Below the pieces are notes generated by a model that was not told where the DNA came from, ran no database searches, and saw nothing but the letters and a program-made list of their open reading frames with translations. A stretch of 64,000 nucleotides of DNA from positions 1 to 64,000 of the forward strand of contig JAFASY010000283.1 of the NCBI GenBank assembly GCA_019244235.1, written 5' to 3'. Positions 5,526-39,224 of the stretch are shown here, in pieces (positions within the stretch are counted from its first letter, which is position 1; the number at the start of each line of letters is the position of its first letter). This DNA comes from Chroococcidiopsidaceae cyanobacterium CP_BM_ER_R8_30 (GTDB lineage: Bacteria > Cyanobacteriota > Cyanobacteriia > Cyanobacteriales > Chroococcidiopsidaceae). Position numbers and translations under genes: made by a program.

Positions 5526-6410
5526 TCAATTGTTCAATGGCGAATAATAACGCTTTCTCCAGTGCGAGGCTGGTTCCAGTTGACTAGCACGTTGCTCTTC
5601 CTGTCGCCGTTGCAATATGACAGTAGCGGAATCACATAGGTAGGGGTCGCGGTAAGGAATGGCAGCACGGGTGTGTAAATGCTCTTGTTCTTGTTGTGAT
5701 AGGGCTGGCAAGTCATAAGTCACCCAACTTGCCACTGTACCAGGCGATCGCCTCCCTACTGGTGGCGTCGAGCCAATCTGTAACCCAGTTGCTAACAGTG
5801 CTGTCCTGACGGCGGCGGCAGAGGAATAAGTCGCTATCCTCCCATCCCAGCATAAACACAGAGAAACCCGTTCCAGAAATTCCATCGTCCATAGTTGGGG
5901 ACAGTGAGGAGGTGAAAACGGATCTAAAAAAACTGCGTCTGCTAGGAAGCCAGATTGTTGTACTAGCCCAATTGTTACCCTCGCATCACCAATAAGTAAA
6001 GTCGCCTTAAGGCGATCTGTCCAAGCTTGGTGTTCCATTGCCAGCTTGCTAAAAATTGGGGTAGATTCACCCGCCCAGCTCAAGAATTGATGAGTGATCG
6101 CAGCTTGTGGCACAGCTGGGTTCAACTCTAAACCAACCACTTCTACCCAGCAGTTAGGGTTGATTGCCCAAATAGTTGTCAGAGCAGCCGCCGTATTGTA
6201 ACCAAGACCATAACAGATATCCAATATCCTCAAACTAGGTTTCTTTGCTACTTGAGCCAGAAGAGCGGGCTGCACAAACTTCAACAGCGCCTCCTCACGG
6301 GCCCCACGACTGCTATGAAATAATTCACCATAATCAGCCGAAAAAAAGGTGAACGAACCATCATCTGTCAATTGCGGCACAAAATCTTCAAAGTCTTTCA
6401 TTAACTCCAA
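5526..6410 (-). CDS. MnmC/MnmD-like SAM methyltransferase
   Basis: A 294-residue Rossmann methyltransferase of the Methyltransf_30 type. The segment DYGELFHSSRGAREEALLKF (26-45) and the SAM loop ILDICYGLGYNTAAAL (62-77) match the N-terminal half of MnmC, which methylates the wobble-uridine side chain of some tRNAs. The downstream FLDPFSPPHCPQLW is the family's DPFSP motif. The FAD oxidase half of enterobacterial MnmC is absent, as in stand-alone MnmD proteins. It probably shares a transcript with glmU. Confidence 0.8.
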   Translation of the reverse strand: MELMKDFEDFVPQLTDDGSFTFFSADYGELFHSSRGAREEALLKFVQPALLAQVAKKPSLRILDICYGLGYNTAAALTTIWAINPNCWVEVVGLELNPAVPQAAITHQFLSWAGESTPIFSKLAMEHQAWTDRLKATLLIGDARVTIGLVQQSGFLADAVFLDPFSPPHCPQLWTMEFLERVSLCLCWDGRIATYSSAAAVRTALLATGLQIGSTPPVGRRSPGTVASWVTYDLPALSQQEQEHLHTRAAIPYRDPYLCDSATVILQRRQEEQRASQLEPASHWRKRYYSPLNN

Positions 6411-33250: not shown

Positions 33251-33661
33251 TTAGGTTAGTACTAGCCTGTTTTTTTTTAAGATTTGCCGTTGAATTAACT
33301 TTGGGGAGACAATTGCTCTCCGATGCTTGGCTTTGCCCACAGTCTCCATATTATTGACAGCCACTAAGTTATAGTCAATAAAACTGCCTTGAATCTGGGA
33401 AATATTAGCTTCGATATGAAGGATGTCATTTATAGGTGTAAAAGCCAAATGCTCAAGGTCTATCCTGATGCCTACAGTTATGTATCCATCCCGTAGGTAA
33501 GGTTGCACTGCCAGGGCAGCAACCGTTTCCATCCATAGAACTATGACATTTGTCGCTAGAACATCTGGAAGACGCGCATCTAAATGGGATGTCGTGTGTT
33601 CCGGTCTCACTAAAAAATCCAGAGAATGCCTTAAATCAACAGGAATTTGAGCTTTGACCAT
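33251..33661 (-). CDS. FlK-like hot-dog thioesterase
   Basis: A 136-residue hot-dog fold protein. It resembles the fluoroacetyl-CoA thioesterase FlK: RPEHTTSHLDARLPDVLATN, then VLWMETVAALAVQPYL and TVGIRIDLEHLAFTPI. Thr37, Glu45 and His71 have the same spacing as FlK's Thr42, Glu50 and His76 (from memory of the family). Acyl-CoA hydrolysis is likely; the acyl group is unknown. It lies downstream of the FAD monooxygenase on the same strand, suggesting a joint pathway. Confidence 0.72.
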   Translation of the reverse strand: MVKAQIPVDLRHSLDFLVRPEHTTSHLDARLPDVLATNVIVLWMETVAALAVQPYLRDGYITVGIRIDLEHLAFTPINDILHIEANISQIQGSFIDYNLVAVNNMETVGKAKHRRAIVSPKLIQRQILKKNRLVLT

Positions 33662-33762: not shown

Positions 33763-35439
33763 TCACATTGCCAATCCTAGAATTTGTCCTAGAACACCCT
33801 GTAGGTCTGCTTCTGGTTCCTGGCTTGCTTTTTGCCTCCTCCAGGCTATATGCCCATCCGGTCTGATCAGGAGCGCCCCATCCTCACTCAGCTCATAGGT
33901 CGAGAGCCAGTTTCCCTCTAGGTCCTGCAGGTCACCATCATCAGCTATACAATAGGCGTCAAGTGGCAGACCTTTACTGTAGGCAAGTCGTCGGGCTGCC
34001 TCACACCAGCTCTGGCCTTTTGGACCAACCAGCAACACGAAGTGCTGGTCGAATAGGTCTAAAGTGGAGATCAAATGACCATCCCGCATGAGCCATACAT
34101 GGGGTGCCCTACTGCCGGGAACGGTGCTTGGGGTATATTGCGATGGGGAAGTGGCTGTGGGCTCGGTCTGATCGGGGATAATGGCAGCTGAGGTATAGAC
34201 AAAACCAAGGTCGAGACCTTCACTCTCCAGGTGTCGGTGCTGCTCCGAGATACCGGACACAGCAGCTTTTTCATCACCCCTTTTGAGTGCCTCATATACC
34301 TGAACGATACGCTTTGTGTTCTCCAAGCTCCACTCGATATTTGTCCGAGCAACGGGAGCCCGTTCAGCTTCATATGTTTCCAGAAGCGCTGGAGAGGCCC
34401 AGCCCTTAAGAGTTGCCGCCAGCTTCCAAGTCAAGTTGTGAACATCCTGGATTCCTGTGTTCATTCCTAGCCCGCCTGTTGGCGGCAGGCGGTGAGCTGC
34501 ATCACCAGCTAAGAAGACTCGACCTTGCTGGTAAGCGGATGCTACCTGAGCTGCCATTGTCCAAAACCCGATATCTAGAATTTCAGCGGCGATTAATGGA
34601 TCTCCTACCAAGCTGCGAACTACTGCCAAAGCAGTAAGAGAGGTGAAATCTTGCCCTTGATAGCTACCTTTTGGTTGGTAAGGTACACCAAACAACCAAC
34701 GCTTTGCACCATCGACAGAGAGCATATAAGCACCACTAGACCAACTCGGATGAGTGAAAAAGAAACCAACGCAGGGTCTATTGCTAAGCCAAGGCGTTAG
34801 GTCAACCTGGCAGTAAATGCTGCATAAGTGTCTGAGATTATCAGGGCCTTGCATCTCAATCCCAAGAGTCTGACGGACTCCACTATGGGCACCATCAGCT
34901 GCAATTAGGTAATGGGCTCGAACCATCTCTTCCTCACCCGTCTCCCGGTTAACAAGACGGGCAGTTACACCAGTATTATCCTGCTCGAACGCCATCAGCT
35001 CAGTCGAGAATCGCAGCTGGGATGATGGGTATGCTAGCGCGCAACGACAGAGTTCTGCCTCCACCCAGTCTTGGGAAACGAGACAGTACTCCGTGGGGCT
35101 GTGCTGTCCACTTTCATACTGTTGAGCGGAGATTCGGGCAATTTCTTGGGATTGAAGAGATTCTGCCCAGATAAACCGCATTGCCTCTGGTGGCAATGCG
35201 TGGGTACGGAGCTGAGTTTCGATACTCCACTGCCGGAACAACTCCATACTCCTAATATTTACGCCCCGTGCCTTCGGGTGTACGGTGGTTCCTGGATGAC
35301 GCTCAACCAAGAGTGAAGGTATCCCAAATCGCCCGAACAGGACTGAAGCGCTGAGTCCAACGGGACCCCCACCGACGATGAGGGCAGGAACTGTTGCGGT
35401 TGTCGAGTCAGCTGAGGTAGATGAGCGTTTAGGGTTCAT
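33763..35439 (-). CDS. FAD-dependent aromatic monooxygenase (PheA/TfdB class)
   Basis: A 558-residue flavin hydroxylase. The dinucleotide fold is VGGGPVGLSASVLF (about 22-35). The DG motif is LIAADGAHSGVRQTLG and the GD motif VFLAGDAAHRLPPTGGLGMNTGI. A thioredoxin-like C-terminal domain follows. These enzymes hydroxylate phenols or polyketide aromatics using NAD(P)H and O2. It is divergent from a TetR gene across a 141-base region with an inverted repeat, so TetR control is likely. Confidence 0.87.
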   Translation of the reverse strand: MNPKRSSTSADSTTATVPALIVGGGPVGLSASVLFGRFGIPSLLVERHPGTTVHPKARGVNIRSMELFRQWSIETQLRTHALPPEAMRFIWAESLQSQEIARISAQQYESGQHSPTEYCLVSQDWVEAELCRCALAYPSSQLRFSTELMAFEQDNTGVTARLVNRETGEEEMVRAHYLIAADGAHSGVRQTLGIEMQGPDNLRHLCSIYCQVDLTPWLSNRPCVGFFFTHPSWSSGAYMLSVDGAKRWLFGVPYQPKGSYQGQDFTSLTALAVVRSLVGDPLIAAEILDIGFWTMAAQVASAYQQGRVFLAGDAAHRLPPTGGLGMNTGIQDVHNLTWKLAATLKGWASPALLETYEAERAPVARTNIEWSLENTKRIVQVYEALKRGDEKAAVSGISEQHRHLESEGLDLGFVYTSAAIIPDQTEPTATSPSQYTPSTVPGSRAPHVWLMRDGHLISTLDLFDQHFVLLVGPKGQSWCEAARRLAYSKGLPLDAYCIADDGDLQDLEGNWLSTYELSEDGALLIRPDGHIAWRRQKASQEPEADLQGVLGQILGLAM

Positions 35440-35534
35440 ATCTTATTGCCCTCATCAAGGCGTGACGGCTCACATAAAGTTAATAGCCTGAAAACACGAT
35501 AAAATGTTCATATTCCTTTTGAAGGTATGATAGT

Positions 35535-35556
35535 TTACCTAAGTTTGTCAAGGTAA
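35535..35556. promoter_or_regulatory. Candidate TetR operator
   Basis: TTACCT-N10-AGGTAA sits in the divergent region between the monooxygenase and TetR genes. On the minus strand the right arm runs into TTGACA, a possible -35 box for the monooxygenase. Position and symmetry suggest repression by the adjacent TetR protein. This is inference; spacing to a -10 box is not ideal. Confidence 0.4.
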
Positions 35557-35580: not shown

Positions 35581-36513
35581 ATGACTCGTTTACTTTCCAA
35601 GCATTCATTTCTCCGTCGCCGACCACAGCAGACGCGCAGCAGACAGCGAGTCGACAAAATTCTCAAGGCCGCCGCTGAGGTGTTTCTTGAAGTGGGTTAT
35701 GAAGCAGCAACCACACGCTTGATTGCTGACCGCGCCAATACTGCCATCGGTTCGCTCTACCAGTTCTTTCCTGACAAATTAGCAATTTTTCATGCCATCG
35801 AACTACAGCACATGGAGCGAGTCCGTGCCTTGCGAAGCCAACTCTTGCAGCCAAAGAGTGCCCAACTGCCGTTGGAGCAGATGATTGACTACCTGTGGGA
35901 AACCTTTACCCAACTGTACGAACAACCCACCTCACGGGTCATCTTCTTGCAGTACTTCACCTCAAAAGAACTGTTTCAACACATTGATGAACGCTTTACC
36001 CGTGAGTTTATGGCAGGGCTAGCCAACTTACTGCGTTGGCGCAATTCGGCACTAAGTCTCGAACACTGCTACTTACTTGCAGAAGTTTGTACCCAATGTG
36101 GGAACTCACTATTGCTGGCAGGGCTCCGCAGCAATGGAACACACCGTCAACAGATTTTTACTCAAGCTAAAGCGCTGCTTGTCGCTTATCTGCACCCGCA
36201 TGTTGCAGACACTTTTCTGCACACAAAAGTAATGAAGCCGTCGGAATGCCCTCATTGTCATTCCCAGCACCTTTCTAAAAATGGTCATCGTCACGGCAAA
36301 CAGCGTTATTTATGTAAGAACTGTCACAGGCAGTTTCCCGAAACCTATTCCAGTCAGGGCTATCCAGAAGTTGTGAAGCAGCGATGCTTAGAGCTGCATC
36401 GTCAGGGGATGAGCTTCCGAGCCATTGAAAAAACAACTGGAGTTTCTCACAATACAGTCATTCTATGGGTGAGGCAAAGCGATCGAGCTGGTGATACTCT
36501 GCTTGTCAACTAA
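35581..36513 (+). CDS. TetR-family regulator fused to IS1 InsA-like zinc-ribbon/HTH
   Basis: A 310-residue protein. Residues 1-210 are a TetR regulator with the HTH in TTRLIADRANTAIGSLYQFF (44-63). From Met218 the sequence changes to an IS1-type InsA module: CPHCHSQHLSKNGHRHGKQR, a second Cys pair CKNCHRQF, then the HTH segment GMSFRAIEKTTGVSHNTVIL. InsA is the DNA-binding part of IS1 transposase; no InsB follows. The in-frame ATG at 36232 suggests a captured or inserted InsA fragment. Regulation of the divergent monooxygenase is likely. The tail may alter DNA binding. Confidence 0.82.
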   Translation: MTRLLSKHSFLRRRPQQTRSRQRVDKILKAAAEVFLEVGYEAATTRLIADRANTAIGSLYQFFPDKLAIFHAIELQHMERVRALRSQLLQPKSAQLPLEQMIDYLWETFTQLYEQPTSRVIFLQYFTSKELFQHIDERFTREFMAGLANLLRWRNSALSLEHCYLLAEVCTQCGNSLLLAGLRSNGTHRQQIFTQAKALLVAYLHPHVADTFLHTKVMKPSECPHCHSQHLSKNGHRHGKQRYLCKNCHRQFPETYSSQGYPEVVKQRCLELHRQGMSFRAIEKTTGVSHNTVILWVRQSDRAGDTLLVN

Positions 36514-36621: not shown

Positions 36622-36645
36622 ATATTTCTAGTATTTTGGAAATAT
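36622..36645. promoter_or_regulatory. Inverted repeat overlapping the ArsR-Clp_N start
   Basis: ATATTTC-N10-GAAATAT overlaps the ATG at 36644. A TTGACA lies just upstream at 36610. ArsR proteins usually bind such AT-rich palindromes over their own promoter, so autorepression is plausible (inference). Confidence 0.4.
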
Positions 36646-37495
36646 GAAAAATAATGACGTAGCTCGGTTTGCCGATTTGTTTGCTGCCCTCGGCTCTGAG
36701 TCTCGGCTAGAAGTGATGCGACTTCTACTTGCTGCTTATCCGAGAGGGCTAACGGTTGGTGAAATTCAAAGCCAACTCAATATCCCTTCCTCGACGCTTT
36801 CCCATCACCTGGAGAAGCTACGGCATGAGGAACTCGTCACCGCTAGAAGGGATAAACAGTGGCTCTGGTATTCAGCTAATGCGCAAACCTTGGAGGATTT
36901 ACTGGCTTTTCTTTACAATGGTTGCTCCACTCACGAGCGCGTCAAAGAATCGGTTCCGGTCACAGCAACACGGGAGGGATTTGTGTTTGAGAATTTCTTT
37001 AGGTCCATTTTTGAGGGACTGTTCGGTTCTGGCTCTACCTTTGAGCAAATCCTGGAGCGGATTCCCCTACAAAGATTTACCCAGCCAGCCGTCAGGGCTA
37101 TGGAGCTAGCTCAAAACGAAGCTCGTCAGTCAGGACATGATTTTGTCGGCACTGAACATATGTTGTTGGGACTGATTAGCGAAGGCAGTGGAGTAGCGGC
37201 CCAAGTACTAAGGTCTTTAGGAGTCACCTTGGAGCAGGCTCGGACTACAGTTGAGGGATGTATCGGTCGTGGTCGAGGTTCAGTGCTCAGGGATATTCCC
37301 TTCACACCAAGAGCTAAGCATGTTCTCGATTTATCGTTAGAGCAGGTCAGGCAGGTAGGGCAAAACCAGATTGACACAGAGCATTTACTGCTAAGCATTC
37401 TGCAAGAGGGGGGTGGGGTAGCGGTTAGAGTTCTTGCCAATCTTGGGGTAGATCTGCCTCATTTAGAACAGCAACTGCGTGGAGCAACTGGCTAA
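36644..37495 (+). CDS. ArsR-type regulator fused to a double Clp_N domain
   Basis: A 283-residue protein. Residues 1-95 are a winged HTH of the ArsR family (LFAALGSESRLEVMRLLLAA; recognition helix near IPSSTLSHHLEKLR). Residues 145-280 hold two Clp repeat (R) motifs: RAMELAQNEARQSGHDFVGT with EHMLLGLISEGSGVA, and VLDLSLEQVRQ...IDTEHLLLSIL. These N-domains of ClpA/ClpC bind adaptor proteins or substrates, but there is no AAA+ part here. A regulator that senses Clp adaptors or misfolded protein is one reading (inference). A self-binding operator overlaps the start. Confidence 0.82.
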   Translation: MKNNDVARFADLFAALGSESRLEVMRLLLAAYPRGLTVGEIQSQLNIPSSTLSHHLEKLRHEELVTARRDKQWLWYSANAQTLEDLLAFLYNGCSTHERVKESVPVTATREGFVFENFFRSIFEGLFGSGSTFEQILERIPLQRFTQPAVRAMELAQNEARQSGHDFVGTEHMLLGLISEGSGVAAQVLRSLGVTLEQARTTVEGCIGRGRGSVLRDIPFTPRAKHVLDLSLEQVRQVGQNQIDTEHLLLSILQEGGGVAVRVLANLGVDLPHLEQQLRGATG

Positions 37496-38468: not shown

Positions 38469-38705
38469 CTACGGCTTTTCTGGAGAGTTTGCCTCCAAAG
38501 CGTCAAGTTTGGCAAGTAGCCTCAACCCCTCTTCCCGACTGCCAGAAGCAGCCATAGCTTTAAAGCGAGTGTAGGCGTCAAACTCAGCAATAGCAATGGT
38601 AGAAAGTTCTTCAACCATTTTGTTGATACTTAGCCCTCTTCGAGCAGCGAGTTCTTTCAATCTAGCGTGTTTATCGTCTGGTAAACGAATGGTGAGAGTA
38701 GCCAC
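38469..38705 (-). CDS. Ribbon-helix-helix antitoxin
   Basis: A 78-residue protein with an N-terminal RHH DNA-binding fold: MATLTIRLPDDKHARLKELA then GLSINKMVEELS. The C-terminus (about 45-78) is charged and would wrap the toxin. Its gene starts 3 bases after the PIN toxin gene stop, so the module is in toxin-first order. It should bind the toxin and its promoter. Confidence 0.82.
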   Translation of the reverse strand: MATLTIRLPDDKHARLKELAARRGLSINKMVEELSTIAIAEFDAYTRFKAMAASGSREEGLRLLAKLDALEANSPEKP

Positions 38706-38708
38706 ATT

Positions 38709-39137
38709 TCACTCCTGCTTGATAATTTGCTCTGGTGTGAGGATAGACAATTGAGGAAACAATAGTTGTGTGTTCTTAAAGTCTTTAACATTATTAGTAG
38801 CAATCAGTCGAGCATTGCCAGCAATAGCTAGCTCAATTAGGTGATTATCAGCTTCATCCTGAAGATTGGGTCTCCATAGGTAGTAAATGGTAATCCACTG
38901 ACTAATGCTCATTAATGCACTGAGTAAATCAAGGATTTCCTCTTGGTTTAACGGACATTGGGCAACAATATCTTTGCGTGTGGTTACCGATTCGTACTCG
39001 CAAAAGAGAGTATTGCCGAACAGGGGTTTGTACTTCCCCTCAAAGCATTGTGTCAAGAGTAATCTTGCTGGGCCTGTGGGTCCAATCAAGGCACTGACAA
39101 AAACACTAGTGTCGATGACAATTCTAGTAGACTCCAT
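38709..39137 (-). CDS. PIN-domain toxin of a type II TA pair
   Basis: About 142 residues from MESTRIVIDTSVFVSALIG. It belongs to the PIN family annotated as putative toxin of TA systems. Acidic residues of the active site are in VIDTSV, in a CEYESV segment, and in EADNHLIELAIAGNARLIAT with NVKDF at the end. It should be an RNase neutralised by the RHH protein encoded just downstream. I used the ATG at 39137; an upstream start at 39173 adds 12 unrelated residues. Confidence 0.85.
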   Translation of the reverse strand: MESTRIVIDTSVFVSALIGPTGPARLLLTQCFEGKYKPLFGNTLFCEYESVTTRKDIVAQCPLNQEEILDLLSALMSISQWITIYYLWRPNLQDEADNHLIELAIAGNARLIATNNVKDFKNTQLLFPQLSILTPEQIIKQE

Positions 39138-39224
39138 GCTTAATGATAGCATATGTGCTATCAGTAGGGTCAAGGTGGTGAAAACGTCTTACCATACTGC
39201 TCATTTCATCTTTTGGGCTGAAAG

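Follow-up and report, generated by a model that had tools for sequence, protein, structure and literature searches.

TetR/AcrR regulators composed of a TetR_N and a TetR_C_15 domain (PDB 3bni, 2oer, KstR) and the InsA protein of IS1 are the closest described systems to the gene at 35581-36513 (+) of the 64-kb stretch of DNA analysed here (the window). The TetR/AcrR regulators have the same body fold and domain order, the same divergent gene layout and a palindromic operator inside a promoter, but they end near residue 210, whereas the fusion protein carries a further 93-residue C-terminal ribbon and helix-turn-helix (HTH). IS1 InsA (NF033558 positions 1-81; Zn_ribbon_InsA / HTH_Tnp_IS1) comprises the same complete ribbon and HTH, and the tail shares about 40-60% identity with InsA domains of cyanobacteria. 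Unlike IS1 InsA, the tail is fixed behind a TetR body and has a single-clade history, and neither an InsB catalytic part nor terminal repeats were found with it. Fusions of host genes with transposase DNA-binding domains are known mainly from eukaryotes, for example from ALOG regulators (PMC3537659) and from F-box genes carrying a mariner HTH (PMC12062965). In those cases the DNA-binding part of a mobile element was likewise captured by a host gene; the TetR-InsA protein differs from them in that it is bacterial and unites two apparently complete DNA-binding modules within a single regulator. No description of an InsA-TetR fusion was found in the freely accessible literature searched. Our preferred reading, which we regard as fairly probable, is that of an autoregulated, ligand-released repressor of a divergent oxygenase gene in which the captured InsA would serve as a second DNA-contacting module.

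The reading frame at 35581-36513 was recovered as annotated, encoding 310 amino acids without interruption. Pfam placed TetR_N at residues 27-73 (E 1.8e-15; 56.9 bits, gathering score 24) and TetR_C_15 at residues 97-204 (E 5.7e-19; 69.2 bits, gathering score 26.8). With NCBIfam, residues 223-253 were recognized as the IS1/IS1595 N-terminal zinc domain NF050000 (54 bits, cut-off 28) and residues 223-302 matched positions 1-81 of the 199 positions of the IS1 transposase model NF033558 (7.5e-25). The score of the latter match, 88 bits, lies below the whole-protein cut-off of 100, as expected because InsB is absent. The Pfam InsA ribbon remained sub-threshold (0.037 on the whole protein, 0.0057 on the tail alone), and HTH_23 also matched the InsA-type HTH of the tail. 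The NCBIfam matches therefore put the likeness of the tail to IS1 InsA well beyond chance. In the AlphaFold2 model (mean pLDDT 85, pTM 0.64) the TetR body was predicted confidently, with helices between residues 15 and 213, and the joint at 215-218, with a pLDDT below 50, was read as flexible; ribbon strands were predicted at 231-253 and three HTH helices at 263-308. The best Foldseek matches of the model were TetR-family structures, e.g. 2oer, 5wm9 and KstR. Pfam, NCBIfam and AlphaFold2 thus bore out the initial annotation, which had described a TetR body with a C-terminal InsA ribbon/HTH tail.

Four parts were delimited on the forward strand. The TetR body (35581-36219; Pfam, AlphaFold2, Foldseek) comprises residues 1-213, with the HTH at 27-73 and the TetR_C_15 ligand/dimerisation part at 97-204. 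It is followed by the flexible joint (36220-36246; pLDDT), residues 214-222, in which the InsA-like part starts at Met218. The Cys4 zinc ribbon of IS1 InsA type, residues 223-253 (36247-36339), was assigned from NF050000 and from the cysteines C223, C226, C245 and C248, which were invariant in 35 aligned relatives; the InsA-type HTH, residues 263-305 (36367-36495), was assigned from NF033558, HTH_23 and the three predicted helices. As judged from its sequence, the tail is a complete InsA-type module (Cys4 ribbon and HTH) without InsB. The ribbon presumably binds zinc, and the tail may contact DNA, which would give the protein two working DNA-binding modules.

The initial annotation had noted that neither insB nor IS ends lay nearby, and both statements agreed with our searches: tblastn over the 3 kb downstream of the ORF revealed no frame resembling insB, and the 28-bp end of the resident IS1 of the genome (L004) was absent from the 64-kb window, an absence counted against the preferred reading. 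Likewise, no insB was found by tblastn within 3 kb of 23 full TetR-InsA fusions. A recent IS1 insertion or a pseudogene was ruled out by the intact ORF, the single clade of the tails (see below) and the lack of insB. InsA represses IS1 in E. coli, and the tail might likewise bind IS1 ends or promoters, silencing resident IS1 and coupling the control of IS elements to the signal sensed by the TetR part. Such a role would suit a near-complete InsA in a genome with IS1-family copies; it is highly improbable, since the tail shares just 39-47% identity with the InsA proteins most similar to it in its own genome, no IS-end-like sequence stood beside the gene when the resident IS1 end was sought, and ribbon-only members of the family are without the recognition helix. 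Two IS1/IS1595-like transposases of the same genome (L008, G000:C128; L009, G000:C153) carry a same-frame N-terminal extension that looks membrane-spanning.

The host genome (5.5 Mb in 328 contigs) encodes two further full-length fusions, 59 and 58% identical to the window copy over the whole length. These paralogues (L072, G000:C172; L073, G000:C262) are near-identical to each other and close to contig ends, with a tyrosine recombinase beside one of them and a transposase and a radical-SAM HpnH-like gene near the other; they perhaps derive from a recent duplication. About 44 of the 196 genomes belonging to the host's family or order held a family member at E < 1e-58, and the relatives in this set that matched named records were cyanobacteria. 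Full fusions were present at no fewer than about 20 further cyanobacterial loci. At least about 59-60 relatives had a ribbon-only tail, the protein ending right after the ribbon, and in at least 15 an unrelated winged-helix tail stood in place of InsA. Named members were taken from a scan of one genome per species. Among the matches listed, full InsA tails occurred in Brasilonema, Scytonema, Mastigocoleus, Calothrix, Dulcicalothrix and Chamaesiphon, ribbon-only tails in Nostoc, Trichocoleus, Tychonema, Microcoleus, Leptolyngbya and many others, and winged-helix tails in Coleofasciculus, Pleurocapsa and Myxosarcina. All of the best 80 matches listed were cyanobacterial but for a single MAG that bears the label Gracilibacteria and probably reflects a mis-binned contig. 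Full fusions thus occurred in at least six genera, and because the fusion recurs in independent named genomes, an assembly or frame artefact was rejected.

To reconstruct the history of the tail, a tree of 124 TetR bodies was used, in which the rows L063 and L065 were entered but ignored. The family formed one supported branch (100/99) apart from tail-less relatives. Tail types were clustered on this tree (14 changes vs 57.7 in shuffles), and InsA and ribbon-only members were interleaved at several depths. The TetR-borne InsA tails were monophyletic, apart from 38 IS1 InsA domains (98/95; 100% of bootstrap trees), and a second tree also gave a clade of TetR-borne tails (94/95; 96% of bootstrap trees). 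Because all ribbons share the same linker and sequence signature and the tails form one clade, an early single capture of InsA is the simplest explanation: the whole of InsA would have been captured once, early, and its HTH half then lost repeatedly, this being the presumed direction of change. HTH remnants 3' of the ribbon-only genes, sought as proof of loss, were not found, nor were ribbon remnants in tail-less members. That the HTH half was often lost or never present was counted against the preferred reading.

Twelve pairs were compared for dN/dS, which was 0.04-0.26 for the tail and 0.08-0.45 for the TetR body; values were lowest for the ribbon (0.02-0.16) and ranged from 0.04 to 0.47, mostly below 0.3, for the HTH half. 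The tail is under purifying selection in 12 of 12 pairs, usually as strong as that on the body. Of the initial proposal, the capture of InsA by a TetR regulator stood, but the event does not belong to the gene at 35581-36513 alone, being ancient and common to a large family. The opposite picture, a fusion found only here, recently inserted and broken by stops in relatives, is contradicted by the recurrence, the single clade and the purifying selection.

The winged-helix members (L044, L046, L048-L051, L053-L057, L130, L132-L134 and L138) were located at two separate places in the tree. Their tail is unrelated to InsA and Cys-poor, and its model (pLDDT 83) resembles ArsR/MarR-like winged helices and a Fic-domain protein. 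As this tail is also a DNA-binding type fold, it was counted for the preferred reading. It bears as well on an alternative in which the Cys4 ribbon is the useful part, a zinc/redox switch or oligomerisation patch tuning the TetR body, with the HTH as a decaying passenger. About 59 relatives end right after the ribbon, the four cysteines are invariant and the ribbon has the lowest dN/dS, all of which would fit such a switch; it is nevertheless unlikely, because the HTH half, where present, is also under purifying selection, and a winged helix poor in Cys, as found in the replacement tail, fits a role in DNA contact better than a metal switch.

Directly upstream of the regulator gene and divergent from it, nearly all relatives have a gene for a Rieske [2Fe-2S] oxygenase (about 340 aa); in a Chamaesiphon subgroup and a few others a P450 gene (named from sequence) stands there instead. 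In the window, this position is occupied by a gene for a FAD-dependent aromatic-ring monooxygenase (33763-35439, -; FAD_binding_3 and Rng_hyd_C in Pfam), which is the presumed target in view of the conserved oxygenase layout. The next gene behind it encodes a FlK-like thioesterase (33251-33661, -; Pfam) and is probably co-regulated with the monooxygenase. None of the four neighbours of the window copy recurs beside relatives in other genomes; the oxygenase theme does recur, unlike these individual neighbours. Directly downstream of the fusion gene lies a further regulator gene whose product has an unusual tail: the ORF at 36644-37495 (+) combines an ArsR-type HTH with two Clp_N repeats. A small ribbon-helix-helix-like protein and an adjoining PIN-domain-like protein are encoded at 38469-39173 (-), and the pair, judged by its sequence alone, looks like a toxin-antitoxin system.

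Between the divergent genes, an almost invariant palindrome, AATATGAC-N5-ATTCAnn-TTTGTCAA, was shared by about 88 relatives; its core inverted repeat is ATGA-N8-TCAT. Measured from the conserved start of the TetR body, the element is 13-205 bases away. Many species have it overlapping the start of the regulator, and in others, e.g. Brasilonema, it does not code for protein; it is therefore conserved as DNA. Read on the divergent strand, TTTGTCAA gives TTGACAAA, and TTGACN with a -10-like hexamer at a distance of 16-18 bases in the divergent direction was found at about 92 of 100 loci (at least 9 of 12 matches). As the -10-like hexamer follows TTGACAAA by 16-18 bases, the palindrome would lie inside the spacer of the oxygenase promoter. 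A weaker second copy of the element is usually present 27-35 bp away. Control by a TetR protein at this putative operator is strongly supported by the comparison of the relatives.

A matrix was built from the 88 relatives, the window being left out of training, and 35493-35512 ranked first among all positions of the 64 kb on both strands. This operator-like site 1 (35493-35512, +; AACACGATAAAATGTTCATA) is a near-palindrome and scores on both strands. Site 2 (35525-35552, +), identified by element alignment, still has ATGA as its left half together with TTTGTCAAG, the two being spaced as in the rest of the family. Its right half has diverged, and the loss of one half-site was counted against the preferred reading; a new inverted repeat, AGGTA-N8-TACCT at 35523-35540, overlaps this site. 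TTGACA at 35546-35551 (-) is the presumed -35 of the divergent oxygenase promoter according to the promoter-pair comparison, and the weak -10 of the window (CATACC at spacing 16) was also counted against the preferred reading. A stringent promoter scan of the window reported no site, and the promoter is therefore only inferred here. A genome-wide search with the operator pattern gave no matches other than the sites belonging to the two paralogues. The two Rieske homologues of the genome had no operator upstream of them, and their regulation in trans was rejected.

The operator was identical in relatives with an InsA, ribbon-only or winged-helix tail and in those without a tail. The tail thus does not determine the primary specificity, for which it may even be unnecessary. 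The same identity with and without a tail, together with repeated shortening and even complete loss, would be expected of a harmless C-terminal appendage that is tolerated and has little function. This explanation is very unlikely, since selection on the tail is usually as strong as on the TetR body, one old clade has been retained across many genera, and the tail was replaced by another DNA-binding type fold and not by nothing.

According to the preferred reading, the TetR protein would repress the divergent oxygenase gene and its own gene, binding as a dimer to the ATGA-N8-TCAT palindrome located in the -35/-10 spacer of the oxygenase promoter and overlapping the start region of the regulator. 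As expected from the family, release would follow when the TetR_C_15 pocket takes up a small molecule, probably one that the oxygenase consumes or makes. Early in this cyanobacterial TetR family the C-terminus would have gained a complete InsA from an IS1-type element; the insA frame ends before insB, so that a 3' in-frame insertion yields exactly such a fusion. As a flexibly linked DNA-contacting module, the tail might add affinity, bridge neighbouring sites or recruit the protein to further sites; the fewest assumptions are needed if it strengthens binding or bridges the tandem sites. Some lineages would then have lost the HTH half or the entire tail, a winged helix substituting for it in others, and the window copy would be a diverged paralogue re-targeted to the FAD monooxygenase/thioesterase pair. 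The family is a clear example of how the DNA-binding domain of a bacterial transposase became fixed in a transcription factor. Full, half, swapped and absent tails at one and the same operator are natural controls, with which the contribution of a second DNA-binding module to a one-component repressor is directly testable.

InsA-like tails were also observed on other proteins. In five genomes of the host's family, a GntR/FCD regulator carries a C-terminal InsA ribbon and HTH (L058, L060, L061, L062 and L193 in G003, G008, G009, G014 and G013, respectively); tail-less GntR/FCD paralogues of 234-279 aa, 46-52% identical, were found in the same and in other genomes. No insB was found beside the GntR/FCD fusions or beside those of an ECF-type sigma factor, a SWIM protein and a C5-methyltransferase described below, in all of which the C-terminal InsA-like tail is homologous and the host domains are unrelated. 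A common origin of all fused InsA tails, which would imply shuffling of a single domesticated module, is compatible with the data (AU p 0.42); separate captures per host protein were not demonstrable, as this value does not reject a single origin. We tentatively propose that InsA may be a portable C-terminal DNA-binding cassette in cyanobacteria, acquired by no fewer than five DNA-acting or regulatory proteins that are unrelated to one another, and that in the TetR-oxygenase family it may be an ancient module for bridging, which a winged helix can replace. This would suggest a general route by which IS1 feeds regulatory evolution, with InsA as a ready-made C-terminal cassette. The ECF-type sigma-70 factor (L063, G105:C1, around 70421) has regions 2 and 4 and a C-terminal InsA tail. 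The SWIM zinc-finger protein (L191, G051:C33, around 6063-6299), a 426-aa open frame, ends in an InsA-type ribbon and HTH. A complete C-terminal InsA tail was also present in the C5-cytosine DNA methyltransferase WP_015146124.1, encoded on plasmid pPSE7367.01 of Pseudanabaena sp. PCC 7367 (L220:2032-3261), where it is possibly a natural targeting module.
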